In this document: one piece after another, positions 1,089 through 22,398 of the stretch
Position numbering within the stretch: position 1 is the stretch's first letter
How the letters are laid out: the number at the start of each line of letters is the position of its first letter
Made by a program: the position numbers and the translations under genes
From: Thauera sp.
Lineage (GTDB): Bacteria > Pseudomonadota > Gammaproteobacteria > Burkholderiales > Rhodocyclaceae
DNA: 32,953 bases
Reading direction: 5' to 3'
Assembly (NCBI GenBank): GCA_030603925.1
Contig: JAUVWV010000006.1
Span: 1 to 32,953 of the forward strand
Notes under the pieces: model-generated
Told to the model about the DNA's origin: nothing
Seen by the model: only the letters and a program-made list of their open reading frames with translations
Database searches by the model: none

Positions 1089-2216
1089 GTGAGGATCAGT
1101 CACAACTTCGACGCAGGCGCCATCGAGGTGGTCGCACTCGCCGACCCGCAGGACATCCGCCTGCGGCTGCGCGCGGACAATGCGGCCGATTTCCGCCAGT
1201 GGTTCTACTTCCGCCTGCAGGATGCGGCGGGCGTGGCGCTGCGCATGGTGTTCGAGAACGCGGGCGAGGCCGCCTACCCGGACTGGCAGGGGTATCGCTG
1301 CGTGGCGTCGTACGACCGGCGGAACTGGTTCCGCATCGCCGGCACGCGCTATGAGGATGGCCGTCTGGTGGTGGAGCACACCCCGGAACGCAACAGCGTC
1401 TACTACGCCTATTTCGAACCCTATTCCCACGAGCGCCACCTCGATCTGCTCGGCTGGGCGGAGATGTCGCCGTATGCCGAAGTGCGCAACCTCGGGGCGA
1501 CCGTGGAAGGGCGCGACCTGGACATGGTGGTGGTCGGGCGGGCGCAGCCCAACCGCCAGCCGCTGTGGATCATTGCCCGCCAGCATCCGGGCGAGACCAT
1601 GGGCGAGTGGTTCGTCGAAGGCCTGCTCAAGCGCCTGCTCGATCCGGCCGATCCGGTGGCGCGCAAGGTGCGCGAACACGCGGTGCTGTACATCGTGCCC
1701 AACATGAACCCGGATGGTGCACTGCGCGGCAATCTGCGCACCAATGCGGCGGGGCGCAACCTGAACCGCGAATGGCGCGATCCCGATCCGCAGGCCGCTC
1801 CTGAAGTGGCCCTGGTGCGCCAGGCCATGATGCACACCGGCTGCCAGCTCTTTCTCGACATCCACGGCGATGAAGAAATGCCCTACGTGTTCTTCTCCAC
1901 CGCCGAGGAGGTGCCCAACTTCACCGCCGCGCTGGCCGAGCGGCAAGGGCATTTCATCGCCGCGCTGCGCGCCGCCAGTCCGGACTTCCAGACCGAACAT
2001 GGCTACCGGACCGGGCGTTTCGGCGAGGAACTGCTCACCCTCGCCAGCAAGTGGGTCGCCAACCACTTCGGCTGCGTGTCGCTGACCCTGGAGATGCCGT
2101 TCAAGGACAACGCCAACCTGCCCGACGGGCAGACCGGCTGGAACGGTGCGCGCAGCGAGCGTCTTGGGGCGGCCATGCTGAACGCGATACTGCGCCATGT
2201 GGAGGCGGGCTATTGA
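1089..2216 (+). CDS. M14 family zinc carboxypeptidase, cytosolic carboxypeptidase (CCP/AGBL)-like
   Basis: HPGETMGEWFVEGLL (HxxE), N-terminal beta domain, NMNPDGALRGNLRTNAAGRNLNR, LEMPFKD; GTG start at 1089 likely. Confidence 0.85.
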   Translation: MRISHNFDAGAIEVVALADPQDIRLRLRADNAADFRQWFYFRLQDAAGVALRMVFENAGEAAYPDWQGYRCVASYDRRNWFRIAGTRYEDGRLVVEHTPERNSVYYAYFEPYSHERHLDLLGWAEMSPYAEVRNLGATVEGRDLDMVVVGRAQPNRQPLWIIARQHPGETMGEWFVEGLLKRLLDPADPVARKVREHAVLYIVPNMNPDGALRGNLRTNAAGRNLNREWRDPDPQAAPEVALVRQAMMHTGCQLFLDIHGDEEMPYVFFSTAEEVPNFTAALAERQGHFIAALRAASPDFQTEHGYRTGRFGEELLTLASKWVANHFGCVSLTLEMPFKDNANLPDGQTGWNGARSERLGAAMLNAILRHVEAGY

Positions 2217-2232
2217 CCCGGCAATCAGATGC

Positions 2233-2284
2233 CGTTCGGGCTGAGCCCCTCGACAGGCTCGGTACAGGCCTGTCGACGCGAACG
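2233..2284. repeat. Imperfect nested palindrome downstream of the M14 peptidase gene
   Basis: cgttcg(2233-2238)/cgaacg(2279-2284) outer arms; cgacaggc(2251-2258)/gcctgtcg(2268-2275) inner arms. Confidence 0.65.
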
Positions 2285-2316
2285 CCGTTCCGCCCCGGAT
2301 TGCGTACTATCCATAG

Positions 2317-2345
2317 TTGCCCGGAACTATTACTTGAGTTATAAG
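2317..2345 (+). promoter_or_regulatory. Candidate promoter TTGCCC-N17-TATAAG
   Basis: -35-like TTGCCC 2317-2322, 17-nt spacer, -10-like TATAAG 2340-2345, in a locally AT-rich segment upstream of ORF 2386. Confidence 0.5.
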
Positions 2346-2385
2346 TCCCGACCATATCAGCCTTCCAGTTGGGAGTTGTCCGGGG

Positions 2386-2682
2386 ATGAATGCGTTAGCC
2401 CACGGCTGCCAGACCGAAACAGACACCCGTGCCCTGTATGCACGTTTCCCGCACCTGCGTCAGATCGATCTGATTTGGGGCAGCCGGGAATGCCGCAACT
2501 TCATCTTCAGACTCATGACGGATACGCGCGGCGGTACCCGCCAGGGCTTTCCCGCCGAGCATGCGATGACCATCATGAGCCTGCTGCTGGAGCACGACCG
2601 CCGTTTTCCCGAGTTCGAACAGGAGCCGCGCGAGTTCCGCTGGGGTGACGAACACCAGCGACGCGGCAGCGGACGCTACTGA
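2386..2682 (+). CDS. Small uncharacterised protein, 98 aa
   Basis: Intact ORF with own promoter-like upstream region and downstream terminator; no family recognised. Confidence 0.65.
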   Translation: MNALAHGCQTETDTRALYARFPHLRQIDLIWGSRECRNFIFRLMTDTRGGTRQGFPAEHAMTIMSLLLEHDRRFPEFEQEPREFRWGDEHQRRGSGRY

Positions 2683-2723
2683 AGCGCTTGAGGCGCGCGC
2701 AGCGCTCCCGCACCCCAAAAAGC

Positions 2724-2755
2724 ACAACGCCGGCTGTACGCCGGCGTTGTCGTTT
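2724..2755. terminator. Bidirectional intrinsic terminator between convergent genes
   Basis: Perfect 11-bp stem acaacgccggc(2724-2734)/gccggcgttgt(2740-2750), 5-nt loop, A-rich left and T-containing right flank. Confidence 0.85.
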
Positions 2756-2763
2756 CTGCGCAA

Positions 2764-4647
2764 TCAGCCCTTGTAGGGACGCTTGCCGGCCGTGCCGCCG
2801 AACGGCTTTCTGGCGGGCGCGCGGTCATCCGCACTGCGTGCGGGTTTGCCGGCGCCCTGGCCCTTGCGGTCGTCCCACTTGCGCGCCGGCCGCTCGCCGC
2901 CCGGTGCGCGATCGTCGCGCGCCGGAGCGCGGCGGCGCTCCGGCAGGCTGGCCGCCTCGGCCGCATCCAGCTCGCGGATGGCGAGCGGACGCTGACGCAC
3001 CCGCACCCGCTTGAGCAGGCCGAGCAGTTCGCCGGGCAGGGCTTTCGGCAGTTCCACCGTGCTGTACTCGTCGAACAGGTGGATCTGGCCGATGTAGCGC
3101 CCTTCGATGCCGCCTTCGTTGGCGATTGCGCCGACGATCTCCTTCGGTGTCGCGCCGTGCATGCGGCCGACCTCGATGCGGTAGCGCGTCAGCGCGCCTT
3201 CGGAGAAGGCGCGACGCCTCGCCAGGATCTCGTCACGGTTCTCGCGCGGCGCACGCTCGTCGCGCACGCCGCGCTCCTTGCGCTCGGTGGCGGCCGGTGC
3301 GGTGGCAATCTCCCAGCCGCGGCCGCTCTCCTCGATCTGCAGCGGACGTTCGCGTTGCGCCAGGAAAGCCAGTGCGGCGGCGATCTCGTGCGCCTTGATG
3401 CACTCTTCTTCCTCGATGCGGTTGATCACGTCCATGAAGAAGGCCAGGTCCTCTTTCTCCAGCGTCTCGATGATCTGCTGGCGGAACTGCGCCACGCGCC
3501 GTCCGGCCACGGCCTCGCGGGTCGGCAGGGCGATCGGCTCGATCGGCTGCCGGGTGGCGCGCTCGATGGCCTTCAGCATGCGGGTCTCGCGCGGCGCGAC
3601 GAACAGGATCGCGGTACCCTGCCGCCCGGCGCGCCCGGTGCGGCCGATGCGGTGCACATAGGCCTCGGTGTCGTAGGGAATGTCGTAGTTGATCACATGG
3701 CTGACGCGCGGCACGTCGATGCCGCGTGCCGCCACGTCGGTGGCCACCACGATGTCGAGCGAACCGTTCTTGAGCCGCTCGATGACCTGCTCGCGCAAGC
3801 CCTGGGTCATGTCGCCGTTCAGCGCCGCCGCTGCATAGCCGCGCGCCTCCAGGCGCTCGGCCAGTTCCACGGTGGCGGTCTTGGTGCGCACGAAGGTGAT
3901 CGCCGCATCGAAGTCGTCCTCGACCTCCAGGATGCGCGTCAGCGCGTCGAGTTTGTCTACCCCGCGCACCTGCCAGTAGCGCTGGCGGATCGCCGCCACG
4001 GTGGCGGTCGCGGCGCGGATCTTCACTTCCTGCGGTTCGCGCAGGTGGCGATGGGCAACGCGGCGGATCGCGTCCGGCATGGTGGCGGAGAACAGCGCGG
4101 TCTGCCGCTCGGCCGGCGTGTGCTCGAGGATCCATTCGACGTCATCGATGAAGCCCATGCGCAGCATCTCGTCCGCCTCGTCGAGCACCAGCAGGGAGAG
4201 CTCGTCGAGCACCAGGCTGCCGCGCTCGAGGTGGTCCATTACCCGCCCGGGGGTGCCGACGATGACCTGCGCGCCGCGTTTCAGCTGGCGCAGCTGCACC
4301 ACCATGCTCTGTCCGCCGTACACCGGCAGGACGTGAAAGTCCGGCAGGTGGTGGGCGTACTTCTGGAAGGCCTCGGCGACCTGGATGGCAAGCTCGCGTG
4401 TCGGCGTGAGCACCAGCACCTGCGGGTTGCGCTTGCGCATGTCGAGGCGCGCCAGGGCCGGCAGGGCGAAGGCTGCGGTCTTGCCGGTGCCGGTCTGCGC
4501 TTCGCCCAGCAGGTCGCGTCCGGCGAGCAGCTGCGGAATGCAGGCGGCCTGGATGGGCGAGGGCGTCTCGTAGCCCACTTCGGCCAGTGCGGTCAGCAGC
4601 GGGGCGGGCAGGTCGAGGTCACGGAAGCTTTCGATCGGAGTCGTCAT
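2764..4647 (-). CDS. deaD: DEAD/DEAH-box ATP-dependent RNA helicase, DeaD/CsdA-like with C-terminal RNA-binding domain
   Basis: AQTGTGKT, VLDEADEML, SATMP, HRIGRTGRAGR motifs; C-terminal GRMHGATPKEIVGAIANEGGIEGRYIGQI resembles the DbpA RNA-binding domain; basic RGG-poor tail. Confidence 0.93.
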   Translation of the reverse strand: MTTPIESFRDLDLPAPLLTALAEVGYETPSPIQAACIPQLLAGRDLLGEAQTGTGKTAAFALPALARLDMRKRNPQVLVLTPTRELAIQVAEAFQKYAHHLPDFHVLPVYGGQSMVVQLRQLKRGAQVIVGTPGRVMDHLERGSLVLDELSLLVLDEADEMLRMGFIDDVEWILEHTPAERQTALFSATMPDAIRRVAHRHLREPQEVKIRAATATVAAIRQRYWQVRGVDKLDALTRILEVEDDFDAAITFVRTKTATVELAERLEARGYAAAALNGDMTQGLREQVIERLKNGSLDIVVATDVAARGIDVPRVSHVINYDIPYDTEAYVHRIGRTGRAGRQGTAILFVAPRETRMLKAIERATRQPIEPIALPTREAVAGRRVAQFRQQIIETLEKEDLAFFMDVINRIEEEECIKAHEIAAALAFLAQRERPLQIEESGRGWEIATAPAATERKERGVRDERAPRENRDEILARRRAFSEGALTRYRIEVGRMHGATPKEIVGAIANEGGIEGRYIGQIHLFDEYSTVELPKALPGELLGLLKRVRVRQRPLAIRELDAAEAASLPERRRAPARDDRAPGGERPARKWDDRKGQGAGKPARSADDRAPARKPFGGTAGKRPYKG

Positions 4648-10812: not shown

Positions 10813-11883
10813 TCATTGGCGGTGGATGTCCACCGGGATGCGGCGCGAGCCGAAGGGCGCGGTGAACGCACCAAAGCGGCCGGCGAGCGCGGTGCCGCAG
10901 GTCGGGCACTTGCCGTCCGGCGTCAGCCGGTAGTCGAGGATCTCGTACCAGTCGCGCACGATCAGGGGCGCGCCGCACCCAGTGCAGCAGGTGGTGCCAC
11001 CCTCGCGGTCGTGCACATTGCCCGTGTAGACATGCTGCAGGCCGGCCTGTTGTGCGATGCGGCGTGCACGGCGCAGCGTGTCGGCGGGCGTGGCGGCGAT
11101 GTCGGTGAGCTTGAAGTCGGGATGGAAGGCGGTGAAGTGCAGCGGCACGGCGGTGCCCAGTTCGCGCGCGATCCAGCTCGACATGGCGGCCAGCTCGGCA
11201 TCCGAGTCGTTCTTGCCGGGGATCAGCAAGGTGGTGATCTCCACCCATACGTCGGTCTCGTGTACCAGCCAGACCAGGGTGTCGAGCACCGGTTGCAGGT
11301 GTGCGCCGCACAGCTGCACGTAGAAATCGTCGGTGAAGCCTTTCAGGTCCACGTTGGCGGCGTCGATCGGGGCGTAGAACTCGGCGCGCGCCGACTCGGT
11401 GATGTAACCGGCGGTGACCGCGACGGTCTGCAGGCCGGCGGCATGGCAGGCCAGCGCGGTGTCGATGGCGTATTCGGCGAAGATCACCGGATCGTTGTAG
11501 GTGAAGGCCACGCTGCGGCAGCCCCAGCGCGCCGCGGTACTGGCAATCTCCTGCGGCGAGGCGGCGTCCATCAGGCGGTCCATGTCGCGCGACTTGGAGA
11601 TGTCCCAGTTCTGGCAGAACTTGCACGCCAGGTTGCAGCCCGCGGTACCGAAGGAGAACACCGAGCTGCCGGGGTAGAAGTGATTGAGTGGCTTCTTCTC
11701 GATCGGGTCGATGCAAAAACCCGAACTGCGTCCGTAGGTGGTCAACACCATGGCGTCGCCTTCGCGCATGCGCACGAAGCAGGCGCCGCGCTGGTCTGCA
11801 TGCAGCTTGCAGTAGCGCGGACAGAGGTCGCACTGGATGCGGCCGTCCTCCAGTGCGTGCCAGTAGCGGGCCGGGTGGTTCAT
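10813..11883 (-). CDS. amrS: AmmeMemoRadiSam system radical SAM enzyme
   Basis: CDLCPRYCKL, CNLACKFCQNWDIS (CxxxCxxC), FTYNDPVIFAEYA, VDLKGFTDDFY; C-terminal CCTGCG...CPTCG. Confidence 0.95.
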   Translation of the reverse strand: MNHPARYWHALEDGRIQCDLCPRYCKLHADQRGACFVRMREGDAMVLTTYGRSSGFCIDPIEKKPLNHFYPGSSVFSFGTAGCNLACKFCQNWDISKSRDMDRLMDAASPQEIASTAARWGCRSVAFTYNDPVIFAEYAIDTALACHAAGLQTVAVTAGYITESARAEFYAPIDAANVDLKGFTDDFYVQLCGAHLQPVLDTLVWLVHETDVWVEITTLLIPGKNDSDAELAAMSSWIARELGTAVPLHFTAFHPDFKLTDIAATPADTLRRARRIAQQAGLQHVYTGNVHDREGGTTCCTGCGAPLIVRDWYEILDYRLTPDGKCPTCGTALAGRFGAFTAPFGSRRIPVDIHRQ

Positions 11884-11930
11884 GCGGACGCTCCTCGAGA
11901 CGGCATGCCCGAGCATGCCCTCATTTCACA

Positions 11931-12113
11931 CTAGCCCGCAATTCTCACACCGTCACGTCGCGAGGGGGTCGAGGCGCCGCCGTGGCGCGCCGCACGGACC
12001 GAGCGACGCCGAAGGCGTAGCCGACACTACGTCGAGGCGGCGTGAGGGAGTACGGCGTGCCACGGCGAGTGCATCGGCACCGCAGCAGGGGGGGTGTGAG
12101 AAATGCGGGCTAG
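11931..12113. repeat. Short non-coding element with 21-bp terminal inverted repeats (copy E1)
   Basis: Left ctagcccgcaattctcacacc (11931-11951) and right ggtgtgagaaatgcgggctag (12093-12113) are inverted repeats matching 20/21; related copy at 14985-15105. Confidence 0.8.
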
Positions 12114-12142: not shown

Positions 12143-12733
12143 TCAGCCGGCGTCCTGCGGCGCGGCTTCGTGCCACTTGTTGACCTGGTAGCGTGCCGCC
12201 ATCAGGCCATTCACCGGGCGCTCCGGCGACAGTCCGGCCTTGTGCTTGAGCGCGGCGAGAAAGGCGCGCGGTTCGGGTAGCTGCTCCCAGACCTGGGGCA
12301 GGAAGGTCGCGCTGCGGCAACCGGCGAAGAGAATCAACCCGTCCTGCCGGGGACGGAGCTGTTCGAGCAGTGCCTGCTCATCGGCGAATTCGAGAAACTC
12401 CGGTTCGGAGAGCAACGATACCTCGATCTGCACGGTGTCGAGTTCGGCCGCCTGCAGCGGGGCGAAGCGCGGATCGCGAATGGCCGCGGCCACAGCATTG
12501 GCCGCCACGTCCTCGCCCAACGGACGCTGGGGGCGCAGGCTGCCCATGCAGCCGCGCAGTTCGCCGTTCTTCTTCAGGGTGACGAAGGTCGCCGCACGGC
12601 GGGCGAGCGCCGGATGTTCGGCCAGCGGCGTCGTATCGCCGCAAAGTTGGCGGGCGATGGCCGCACGTGCATGCGCCAGCAGCAGCGCACCGAGGGCCTC
12701 GGCAGACGGTTCAGTGTCGGGCTGCGGCGACAT
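12143..12733 (-). CDS. amrA: AmmeMemoRadiSam system protein A (AMMECR1 domain)
   Basis: TFVTLKKNGELRGCMGSLRPQRPLGEDVAANAVAAAIRDPRFAPL, IEVSLLSEPE. Confidence 0.95.
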   Translation of the reverse strand: MSPQPDTEPSAEALGALLLAHARAAIARQLCGDTTPLAEHPALARRAATFVTLKKNGELRGCMGSLRPQRPLGEDVAANAVAAAIRDPRFAPLQAAELDTVQIEVSLLSEPEFLEFADEQALLEQLRPRQDGLILFAGCRSATFLPQVWEQLPEPRAFLAALKHKAGLSPERPVNGLMAARYQVNKWHEAAPQDAG

Positions 12734-14984: not shown

Positions 14985-15105
14985 CTGGCCCGCATCTCTC
15001 ACATCATCCCTGTTGCCGGTGCCGATGCACTCGCCGCAGCACACCGTACCCCCTCACTGCGCCTTCGTCCCCGCGCGGCGTGCCCGGACGGGCAATGCGG
15101 GCTAG
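14985..15105. repeat. Second, diverged copy (E2) of the short repeat element
   Basis: ctggcccgcatctctcac...cggtgccgatgcactcgccg...tgcgggctag; matches the reverse complement of E1, with a 20-bp identical core (15017-15036 versus 12063-12082). Confidence 0.75.
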
Positions 15106-15116: not shown

Positions 15117-15818
15117 ATGCAGAACTTTCATCCACGTCACTTCGCCATCGTGCCCGCGGCCGGCAGCGGTACGCGCATGGGCGCCGAGCGCCCCAAGCAG
15201 TACCTGCCGCTGCTCGGCCGTCCGCTGATCCATCACTCGCTGGCGGTGCTGTGTGCCGCGCCGGAGATCGACAAGGTGTTCGTCGTGCTCTCGGTCGGCG
15301 ATGCCGAATGGGCGCGCCACGACTGGTCTGCGCTCGGGCCCAAGCTGGTGCCGCTGTTCTGCGGCGGCGCCACCCGTGCCGACAGCGTGTTGGCCGGGCT
15401 GCGCGCGATCTCCGCCGAGGCGGCGCAATCGGACTGGGTGCTGGTGCACGACGCCGCACGCCCCTGCCTGGCCGCCTGGCACATCGACAAACTGATCCGC
15501 GAACTCGCGCATGACGAGGCTGGCGGTCTGCTCGCCGTGCCGGTGGCCGATACGCTGAAGCAGGCCGATGCGCAACGCCGTGTGCAGCGCACCGTACCGC
15601 GCGACAGCCTGTGGCAGGCGCAGACGCCGCAGATGTTCCGCTACGTGATGCTGCGCCGCGCGCTGGAGAGCGCGCACGGCGTCACCGACGAGGCCAGCGC
15701 GATCGAAGCCGCCGGCCTGCATCCGCGCCTCATCGAAGGCGATGCCACCAACCTCAAGGTGACCTTTCCGCTCGATCTGCACCTCGCGGAATGGATCCTG
15801 CAGAACCGCGACCAGTAA
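15117..15818 (+). CDS. ispD: 2-C-methyl-D-erythritol 4-phosphate cytidylyltransferase
   Basis: [53 protein letters not shown]. Confidence 0.97.
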
Positions 15819-19777: not shown

Positions 19778-19907
19778 TGCGTGGGATGTCGTTATTTTTC
19801 GAGCCGCCGATGATGGCACAGCACATCGCCTTTTTGGGCCTCCGGCAGAACACGCCCCTCGGCTCAGCCCGCCCAGTCCGCGATTGCGCAGTACGCTTCA
19901 CCGCAGG

Positions 19908-20013
19908 CCGCATCGCGGCCAAGGCCGCTCCCACCGGGGGCCGTAGGAGCGGGCTTGCCCGCGATGCAGCCTTGCAGGCGCCGACCGCCGCATCGCGGCC
20001 GAGGCCGCTCCCG
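19908..20013. repeat. REP/REPIN cluster 1 (three units), upstream of relA
   Basis: gccgcatcgcggccaaggccgctcccac (about 19908-19934), gtaggagcgggcttgcccgcgatgc (19943-19967), gccgcatcgcggccgaggccgctcccgc (about 19987-20013); alternating orientation. Confidence 0.85.
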
Positions 20014-20072
20014 CCTGCGGGAGCATGTCGGCGCGCATCATGACGGGCGGCCGATATGGGATAATCCGCGCC

Positions 20073-22274
20073 ATGGTTTCCGTGACCCATGCCCTCCCCA
20101 AGAACGACGCGCCGCCGCCCGTCGAGCTGCTCGCAGCCGGGCTGTGCGCCGACGAGCGCGCGCTGATCGAGCAGGCCGTGGAACTGGCCACCGAGCTCTA
20201 CGAGGATCACCTGCTCGGCACCGGCGAGGCGGTCTGGCCGCATGCCCTGGGAATGTCGCTGATCTGCGCCGCGCTGCGGCTGGATGCGGAAACCCGCATC
20301 GCCGCGCTGCTGTTCGCCGCCTGCGACTACCTGCAGGATGGCGAGGAGAAGATCGCCGCGCGGTTCGGTCGGCCGGTTGCGCACCTGGTCGATGGGCTGC
20401 GCAAGCTCAACGGCCTGCGCCTGATCACCCGCATGACCGCCACCGCCTCGGCGCCGGAAATCCGCACGCAGGCCGAAGTGTTGCGCAAGATGCTGCTTGC
20501 CATGGTGGAGGACATCCGCGTGGTGTTGCTGCGCCTGGCCTCGCGTACCCAGACGCTGCGCTACTTCACCGACCATCCGGTGGACGCGCGCGTGGACGTG
20601 GCGCGCGAGAGCCTCGACATCTATGCGCCACTGGCCAACCGCCTCGGCGTGTGGCAACTGAAGTGGGAACTGGAGGATCTCTCCTTCCGCTTCATCGAGC
20701 CCGACACCTACAAGCGCATCGCGAAGATGCTCGACGAACGCCGGGTGGAGCGCGAGAACTTCATCCAGGAGGCCATCGAGCGTCTCGGCCGGGAGATCGC
20801 CGCGGTCGGCATCAAGGCCGAGATCAACGGCCGTCCCAAGCACATCTACAGCATCTACAACAAGATGCGCAAGAAGGACCTCGCCTTCTCGCAGGTCTAC
20901 GACATCCGCGCGCTGCGCGTGCTGGTGGATGAGGTGCGCGACTGCTACACGGTGCTCGGCATCGTGCATCAGATCTGGCAGCCGATCAGCAAGGAATACG
21001 ACGACTACATCACCAAGCCCAAGGGCAACAACTACCAGTCGCTGCATACCGCGGTGCTGGCCGGCGACGGGCGCGCGCTGGAGGTGCAGATCCGCACCTA
21101 CGAGATGCACCGCCATGCCGAACTCGGCGTGGCCGCCCACTGGCGCTACAAGGAAGGCAGCGGCCACGGCGGCGACTACGACGAGAAGATCGCCCTGCTG
21201 CGGAGCCTGCTGTCCTGGCGTGACGAGGTGGCCGACTCGGCCGACTGGGTGGAGCGCTTCAAGCGCGCCTCGCTGGACGACACCCTCTATGTGCTGACCC
21301 CGCAGGGCAGGGTGGTGGACCTGCCGCGCGGCGCCACGCCGGTGGATTTCGCCTACCGCGTGCATACCGACCTGGGCCACCGCTGCCGCGGCGCCAAGGT
21401 GGACGGCCACCTGGTGCCGCTCAGCACCGCGCTGGAGAACGGCCAGACGGTGGAGATCACCGCCGCCAAGGAGGGCGGCCCCTCGCGCGACTGGCTGGAC
21501 CCGCGCCAGGGCTATGTCGCCACCAGCCGCGCGCGCAACAAGATCAAGCAGTACTTCAGCCAGCAGGAAGAAGAGGAACTGCTCTCGCGCGGGCGCAGCT
21601 TCGTGACCCGCGAGATGCAGCGCGACGGCCATGCGCAGGCCAACATCGAAGAGCTCGCCGGCAAGCTCGGCTTCAAGAACGCCGATGCGCTGTACGTCGC
21701 CGCCGGACGCGGCGAGGTCGGCCCGCGTGCGGTGCAGGTCGCGCTGCGCGAGGCCGATGCCGGCACCGAAGCCCCCGCCGAACCGGAAATCGTCGTCGGA
21801 CGCAGCCGCGCCGGCGACACCAGCGACAAGGTGCTGATCGTCGGCGTGGGCAAGCTGCTGACCTCGCTGTCGCGCTGCTGCCGCCCGGCGCCACCGGACG
21901 CCATCGAAGGCTTCGTCACGCGCGGGCGCGGCATCTCCATCCATCGCGTGGACTGCGAGGATTTCCAGCAACTCGCCAGGCGTCATCCGGAACGGGTGAT
22001 CGAGGCCGACTGGGGCGACCAGGCCTACAACAACCGCCAGGCCGTGTTCCCGGTGGATATCGCCGTGCAGGCCGCAGACCGCCAGGGCCTGCTGCGCGAC
22101 ATCTCGGAAGTGCTGTCGCGCGAGAAGCTCAACGTGATCGCGGTGAACACCCTGACCAAGAAGGGCACCGCCTTCATGCGCTTCACCATGGAAGTCGGCG
22201 GCGTTACCCAGCTGCAGCGCGCGATCACGCTGATCCGCGAGGTCCCGGGGGTGATTGACGCGCAGCGTCGGTAG
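20073..22274 (+). CDS. relA: RelA-type (p)ppGpp synthetase
   Basis: YDIRALRVLVDEVRDCYTVLGIVH, EYDDYITKPKGNNYQSLHT (ExDD synthetase-type motif), TGS and C-terminal ACT domain; HD hydrolase motif not conserved. Confidence 0.95.
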   Translation: MVSVTHALPKNDAPPPVELLAAGLCADERALIEQAVELATELYEDHLLGTGEAVWPHALGMSLICAALRLDAETRIAALLFAACDYLQDGEEKIAARFGRPVAHLVDGLRKLNGLRLITRMTATASAPEIRTQAEVLRKMLLAMVEDIRVVLLRLASRTQTLRYFTDHPVDARVDVARESLDIYAPLANRLGVWQLKWELEDLSFRFIEPDTYKRIAKMLDERRVERENFIQEAIERLGREIAAVGIKAEINGRPKHIYSIYNKMRKKDLAFSQVYDIRALRVLVDEVRDCYTVLGIVHQIWQPISKEYDDYITKPKGNNYQSLHTAVLAGDGRALEVQIRTYEMHRHAELGVAAHWRYKEGSGHGGDYDEKIALLRSLLSWRDEVADSADWVERFKRASLDDTLYVLTPQGRVVDLPRGATPVDFAYRVHTDLGHRCRGAKVDGHLVPLSTALENGQTVEITAAKEGGPSRDWLDPRQGYVATSRARNKIKQYFSQQEEEELLSRGRSFVTREMQRDGHAQANIEELAGKLGFKNADALYVAAGRGEVGPRAVQVALREADAGTEAPAEPEIVVGRSRAGDTSDKVLIVGVGKLLTSLSRCCRPAPPDAIEGFVTRGRGISIHRVDCEDFQQLARRHPERVIEADWGDQAYNNRQAVFPVDIAVQAADRQGLLRDISEVLSREKLNVIAVNTLTKKGTAFMRFTMEVGGVTQLQRAITLIREVPGVIDAQRR

Positions 22275-22383
22275 GCGCGGGCTTGCCCGCGATCACGGCG
22301 TCCGCTTTCCGTAGGCCGCATCGCGGCCAAGGCCGCTCCTACACACGGTCCGCGCCGGGTAGGAGCGGGCTTGCCCGCGATGC
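22271..22383. repeat. REP/REPIN cluster 2 (three units), between convergent relA and ppk1
   Basis: gtaggcgcgggcttgcccgcgatc (22271-22294), gcatcgcggccaaggccgctcctac (about 22318-22342), gtaggagcgggcttgcccgcgatgc (22359-22383). Confidence 0.87.
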
Positions 22384-22398
22384 TGCGTTGCGGCGGGC

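Follow-up and report, generated by a model that had tools for sequence, protein, structure and literature searches.

A 175-bp non-coding hairpin element between amrA and amrS in Thauera sp. shares its ends and target duplication with IS1380-family insertion sequences

The amrA-amrS junction and the limits of the element

The window, meaning the whole analyzed stretch of 32,953 nucleotides of Thauera sp. DNA (assembly GCA_030603925.1, contig JAUVWV010000006.1), contains two co-directional genes that are transcribed leftwards on the minus strand. The gene lying upstream with respect to transcription is amrA (AMMECR1, AmmeMemoRadiSam system protein A; 12143-12733; TIGR04335 7.6e-56, PF01871 2.4e-45), and the downstream neighbour is amrS (AmmeMemoRadiSam radical SAM enzyme; 10813-11916; TIGR04337 3.1e-189). 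The longest amrS reading frame probably begins too early (11884-11916), and, judging from the relatives, the true start is probably the ATG at 11883 (MNHPARYW). The element described here lies in the gap between these genes.

The first-pass annotation had delimited a MITE-like interval of 183 bp with 21-bp terminal inverted repeats. The inverted match was confirmed at its exact positions (11931-11951 against 12093-12113, 20/21), and the 21-bp repeat has no other match in the window at up to 3 mismatches, with 0 expected from shuffles. The outer bounds were not retained, since the interval consists of a 175-bp element (11935-12109, plus strand) and a 4-bp target, CTAG, duplicated identically on both sides at 11931-11934 and 12110-12113. 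The terminal inverted repeats (TIRs) are accordingly 17 bp each, CCCGCAATTCTCACACC at 11935-11951 on the plus strand and CCCGCATTTCTCACACC at 12093-12109 on the reverse strand, and match at 16 of 17 positions, with 0 such pairs expected in the window. The element is well within the size of a MITE (below about 500 bp) and, as had been proposed, lacks a convincing ORF: the overlapping shadow ORFs match no coding family, and none encodes an IS1380 transposase.

A 2-bp TA target had also been suggested; this was wrong, and the duplicated target is a 4-bp YTAR, usually CTAG. The 4-mer can be read as a target duplication because empty orthologous sites carry one YTAG and occupied sites two, because three identical IS1380 copies in Thauera sp. 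28 have matched flanks (CTAG/CTAG, CTAG/CTAG and TTAG/TTAG), and because matched flanks other than CTAG exist among the miniature copies (TTAA/TTAA, CTAT/CTAT and CTAA/CTAA), with no consistent direct repeat beyond the 4-mer. CTAG/CTAG flanks were observed in 42 of 79 pairs, a share that is partly biased, as many were found using a pattern ending in CTAG. CTAG itself is rare, with 5 occurrences in the 33-kb window, 3 of which flank the two copies located there. Flanking 4-mers differ by at least one base in many Pseudothauera copies, implying old insertions or other processes.

Copies and empty sites in the genus

The second, diverged copy noticed in the first-pass annotation proved to be real. 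It is found at 14985-15105 on the minus strand, inverted relative to the first and flanked by CTGG and CTAG, directly upstream of ispD (15117-15818, plus strand; TIGR00453 4e-70). It is internally deleted and decayed, with one damaged end and 84% identity to the first copy over 80 bp. In the source genome (G000) as a whole, 24 TIR-like ends were detected at no more than 3 mismatches, compared with 0 for a control pattern. One more full copy (C256) is 92% identical, and further copies are shortened to 102, 81 or about 70 bp. A possible TIR pair of insertion-sequence size, with no recognisable transposase, was also seen in C245 of this genome.

Elsewhere in the genus there are copies 92-95% identical to the window copy. 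At no more than 1 mismatch, 49 TIR ends were counted in Pseudothauera lacus and 12 in the congener G005, with 0 for the control pattern in both. About 14 full copies are present in P. lacus D20 (G003; G064 is a P. lacus record with the same coordinates), 4 in G005 and 1 in G001, and there are no full copies in the sister genomes G002 and G004. The copies are dispersed, and the outcome named in the first-pass annotation as speaking against mobility, a lack of further copies in the host genome, did not occur.

Five candidate empty sites with joined flanks were submitted to alignment; 2 were clean and 3 ambiguous, the intergenic sequence of the latter not being alignable. The occupied site of G001, CCCG-TTGG[element]CTAG-AATC, corresponds to an empty CCCG-TTAG-AATC in G000 and G002, and TTAG is also present in G005. 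The occupied site of G003, TTCCG-CTAG[element]CTAA-GTGGCGG, corresponds to TTCCG-CTAG-GGCGG in G004 and G005. At both congeneric sites a single YTAG is seen when the element is missing. These sister copies were therefore shown to be lineage-specific insertions with a 4-bp YTAR duplication. Copies are often found where a gene ends; in several, among them L034, L044 and L055, a long upstream reading frame terminates at the TAG of the left CTAG.

Empty orthologous sites were also sought at the amr locus itself. The element is absent from the amrA-amrS gap in 25 relatives having the pair, so that occupation of every orthologous amr locus, the other outcome considered beforehand, was not observed. 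In the relatives displayed, the junction ranges from an overlap to about 65 bp, with the exception of 406 bp in G005; for the other relatives, the positions of amrA and amrS leave no space for the element. The gap in G005 (L198 1095-1500) was widened by REP-like palindromes, and the junction has therefore been entered by two repeat types in different species.

A hairpin interior with conserved structure

The interior of the element forms one long hairpin, the shape of which is conserved in several phyla while the letters differ. The strand folds at -128 kcal/mol, compared with -81.2 for shuffles (sd 4.1; z = -11.3). Two inner motifs are located on the plus strand, the left one, CGTCGCGAG (11956-11964; family form CGTMGCGAG), with a constant spacing from the TIR, and the right one, CGCAGCAGG (family form CGCAGYAGA), at 12081-12089. 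A central apical hairpin, GGCGTAGCCGACACTACGTC, occupies 12014-12033 on the same strand (columns 85-104 of alignment A1) and covaries across phyla. When one element per organism was taken from the TIR scan, giving 34 organisms among the matches listed, both motifs were present at their fixed distances in 21, and neither in 12 of the other 13. The chance of finding both is about 0.0006 per element.

Covariation was computed on 17 aligned elements, in which 90.5% of the cells of the long hairpin are paired, compared with 33-45% when slid. Compensated pairs, changed on both sides, number 37 of 59, and the doubly changed cells amount to 187, compared with 67.6 after shuffling and 37-51 after sliding. 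The structure had been derived from this very alignment and is somewhat favoured by that. Both sides vary in 32 of 38 pairs of helices 2-7, which lie away from the TIR. Correction of the palindrome during replication could be another source of restored pairing; unpaired conserved inner motifs should not persist under simple correction of this kind. The covariation is evidence for selection on structure, not proof. The description as a dispersed structured repeat, which the first-pass annotation had offered beside the mobile element, therefore also applies. Rfam 15 gave no match at or above the gathering score.

Distribution across bacteria

The hairpin of about 180 bp with its two fixed inner motifs occurs in about five phyla, Pseudomonadota, Acidobacteriota, Desulfobacterota, Verrucomicrobiota and Bdellovibrionota; the hosts are mostly MAGs, some of which could be misbinned, with Acanthopleuribacter pedis and P. 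lacus being isolates. A Halothiobacillaceae copy 90% identical to the window copy is suspected to come from such misbinning. The number of TIR ends reaches 680 in A. pedis (10.8 Mb), 247 in an Opitutia MAG, 205 in the gammaproteobacterium SZUA-41 and 151 in a Chromatiaceae MAG, with 0 for the control. The A. pedis copies have clean CTAG duplications. Some of them (L346, L348, L353 and L356) carry internal tandem expansions of about 13-19 bp (GGTCCGACCTTTC and so on) and are up to 349 bp long, and others are reduced to 51-58 bp. In an even sample of 399 Pseudomonadota genomes, the exact left end of the hairpin, a strict pattern allowing no mismatch, was found only in the source genome. The hairpin family is therefore rare and patchy, and abundant where present. 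Searches of plasmid and phage DNA gave no match to the element. Viral contigs contained no hairpin-type end; the TIR matched there at five isolated places, and for one of these a second end lay at a distance of about 260 bp.

Insertion sequences with the same ends

An insertion sequence (IS) sharing the TIR, the search for which had been recommended, was found in other genomes. A collection of genome contigs was scanned for TGTGAGAWWTGCGGGCTAG and the ends were then paired. Among the matches listed, this yielded many elements of 60-320 bp and at least 3 TIR-bounded elements of IS size (1.6-1.8 kb). The latter (L110, L123 and L167, 1.67-1.71 kb long and together from Thauera, Planctomycetota and Bradyrhizobium hosts among the matches listed) were found without selection for a transposase, and all 3 encode IS1380 transposases within the same TIR and CTAG flanks. 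Altogether, the same TIR and YTAR duplication enclose complete IS1380-family ISs (PF13701, NF033539, up to 6e-123) in Thauera, Planctomycetota, Bradyrhizobium, Chromatiaceae and conjugative plasmids, the last including pKF715A and pCB82_1. The Chromatiaceae MAG holds both such an IS and the hairpin element. PF13701 matches are present in 9 of 17 genomes with miniature elements of this TIR, 8 of these above the Pfam cut-off, and in G068, G069, G072 and G073 an IS1380 copy or relic begins with the same TIR after YTAG. One of the three identical copies in Thauera sp. 28 (L123 60-1880) lies apparently inside a spacer of a CRISPR array, with CTAG flanks. By tblastn, the Thauera IS has relatives at 60-65%, many on conjugative plasmids; megablast of this IS against plasmids gave no match.

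The element and this IS1380 subgroup have in common the terminal 14 bp or so (CCCGCATTTCTCAC) and the YTAR duplication, which are identical, and nothing recognisable beyond the outermost bases. The element has no transposase gene and the IS has no hairpin interior. The interior was shown to be a hairpin lineage of its own and not a deletion derivative of the known IS. Other TIR-bounded miniatures (L122, L115, L144, L130 and similar ones) lack the inner motifs of the hairpin family, and L122 seems to retain part of an IS1380 left end, so that several unrelated MITE types share this TIR.

Six Pseudothauera genomes, of which five are about 99% complete, gave no IS1380 transposase (PF13701); for the source genome this holds both at E 1e-10 and by PF13701. 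The autonomous relatives were found in genomes outside this genus. The element family therefore looks orphaned in Pseudothauera. In A. pedis, with its 680 ends, an IS1380 transposase was likewise not found. One locus of SZUA-41 (L328), in which a PF13701 transposase lies between 40-bp hairpin-type arms, was considered as an autonomous partner and rejected, since the IS proved to possess ends of its own, CCTARA...ATCAGTT, and to be enclosed by left-type arms forming a palindromic pair. This locus (1241-3011) thus holds a diverged IS1380-like IS, which scores 130.9 bits with NF033539 (cut-off 180) and is nested between the two arms, and the whole 1.76 kb is flanked by CTAG; it is possibly a composite movable with either set of ends.

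Discussion

By every defining feature tested, the element is a MITE. The dispersed copies, the lineage-specific insertions with a 4-bp duplication, the amr gaps without it and the ISs sharing its TIR all agree with the non-autonomous mobile element originally proposed. Its most probable origin, to which we assign a probability of about 0.85, is that of a gene-less mini-transposon moved in trans by an IS1380-type transposase, the source of which has since been lost, with an interior that is a hairpin lineage of its own. A DDE transposase of the IS1380 subgroup probably arrived from outside, such ISs being carried on conjugative plasmids. By binding in trans to the CCCGCATTTCTCAC ends it would have mobilised the element, and later loss of the source IS would have left orphan copies. 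As YTAR contains the stop codon TAG, copies would tend towards gene ends and intergenic sites. The hairpin may have been kept because transposition, or survival in transcripts, needs it. Since no IS1380 transposase was found in the six Pseudothauera genomes or in A. pedis, we infer movement by IS1380 from the shared ends and not from co-residence.

That same lack of an IS1380 transposase despite many copies, together with an interior unlike those of IS1380, would also suit movement by another transposase, such as a YTAR-targeting DDE family so far unnoticed. A 4-bp YTAR is also reported as the target of the IS5 group. We regard movement by another transposase as improbable, as each of the three IS-size elements collected irrespective of transposase proved to carry an IS1380 transposase gene between the same TIRs and CTAG flanks. 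A resident cis-regulatory or structural RNA of the amr operon (an attenuator, riboswitch or processing site) might be supposed from the very stable hairpin, the covarying stems and the position in a gap of co-directional genes. However, no relative examined has it between amrA and amrS, it is dispersed at many unrelated loci, Rfam offers no match, and it was inserted with a target duplication; such an RNA is very unlikely, and a role at the amr site co-opted later is possible.

Being palindromic, intergenic and multicopy, with GTAG or CGTC tetranucleotides in its inner motifs like the tags of REPs (PMC3733652), the element might also be taken for a REP/BIME-type palindrome moved by a RAYT (IS200-like) transposase. 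GTAG/CGTC-tagged REPs are likewise palindromic intergenic repeats, and Thauera is among the reported hosts of the GTAG type, but they are hairpins of 20-40 bp with an unpaired tag, RAYT-associated and without TIR or target duplication (PMC3733652). The element has 175 bp, 17-bp TIRs and a 4-bp duplication, and the REP-like repeats elsewhere in the window look different, so we give this assignment hardly any credence. Those repeats are short palindromic clusters at 19901-20014 and 22271-22391 (GTAGGAGCGGGCTTGCCCGCGAT, GCCGCATCGCGGCCAAGGCCGCTCC) and resemble GTAG-type REPs.

The element resembles the known bacterial MITEs NEMIS, RUP, Bcr1, ERIC and Nezha, which are also short, non-coding, multicopy and hairpin-forming, with TIRs and a target duplication, and lie beside genes (PMC3733652). 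Each of those is named for one genus or group, whereas this element crosses phyla with one covarying hairpin plan and fixed inner motifs. Among the papers searched, none gave the TIR sequence or described an IS1380/CTAG MITE of the same type. The element shares with piggyBac, which duplicates TTAA and to which IS1380 transposases form an outgroup (PMC10813416), a palindromic 4-bp target centred on TA and ends that start with CCC; it is bacterial and its target is mostly CTAG, and this is an analogy only, not membership.

Orphan repeats in a Pseudothauera genome are hereby tied to a transposase family and to an exact target, YTAR, and the origin of copies is now testable. With its 680 ends, A. 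pedis shows how strongly intergenic DNA can be shaped by elements of this kind. It is the covarying hairpin across phyla that raises the element above a routine MITE, as one secondary structure with compensating changes would hardly be expected of MITE interiors that serve as neutral filler. A more speculative reading, which we consider rather less likely than not, is that the interior is a functional, structure-selected nucleic acid, representing one old non-coding mobile lineage, with stems and unpaired motifs required for movement or maintenance. It might, for example, serve in a hairpin-dependent step that involves a host factor or an IS1380 transposase, or act as a functional transcript. 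If the interior is indeed selected for its structure, bacterial MITEs would not always be passive remnants of insertion sequences.
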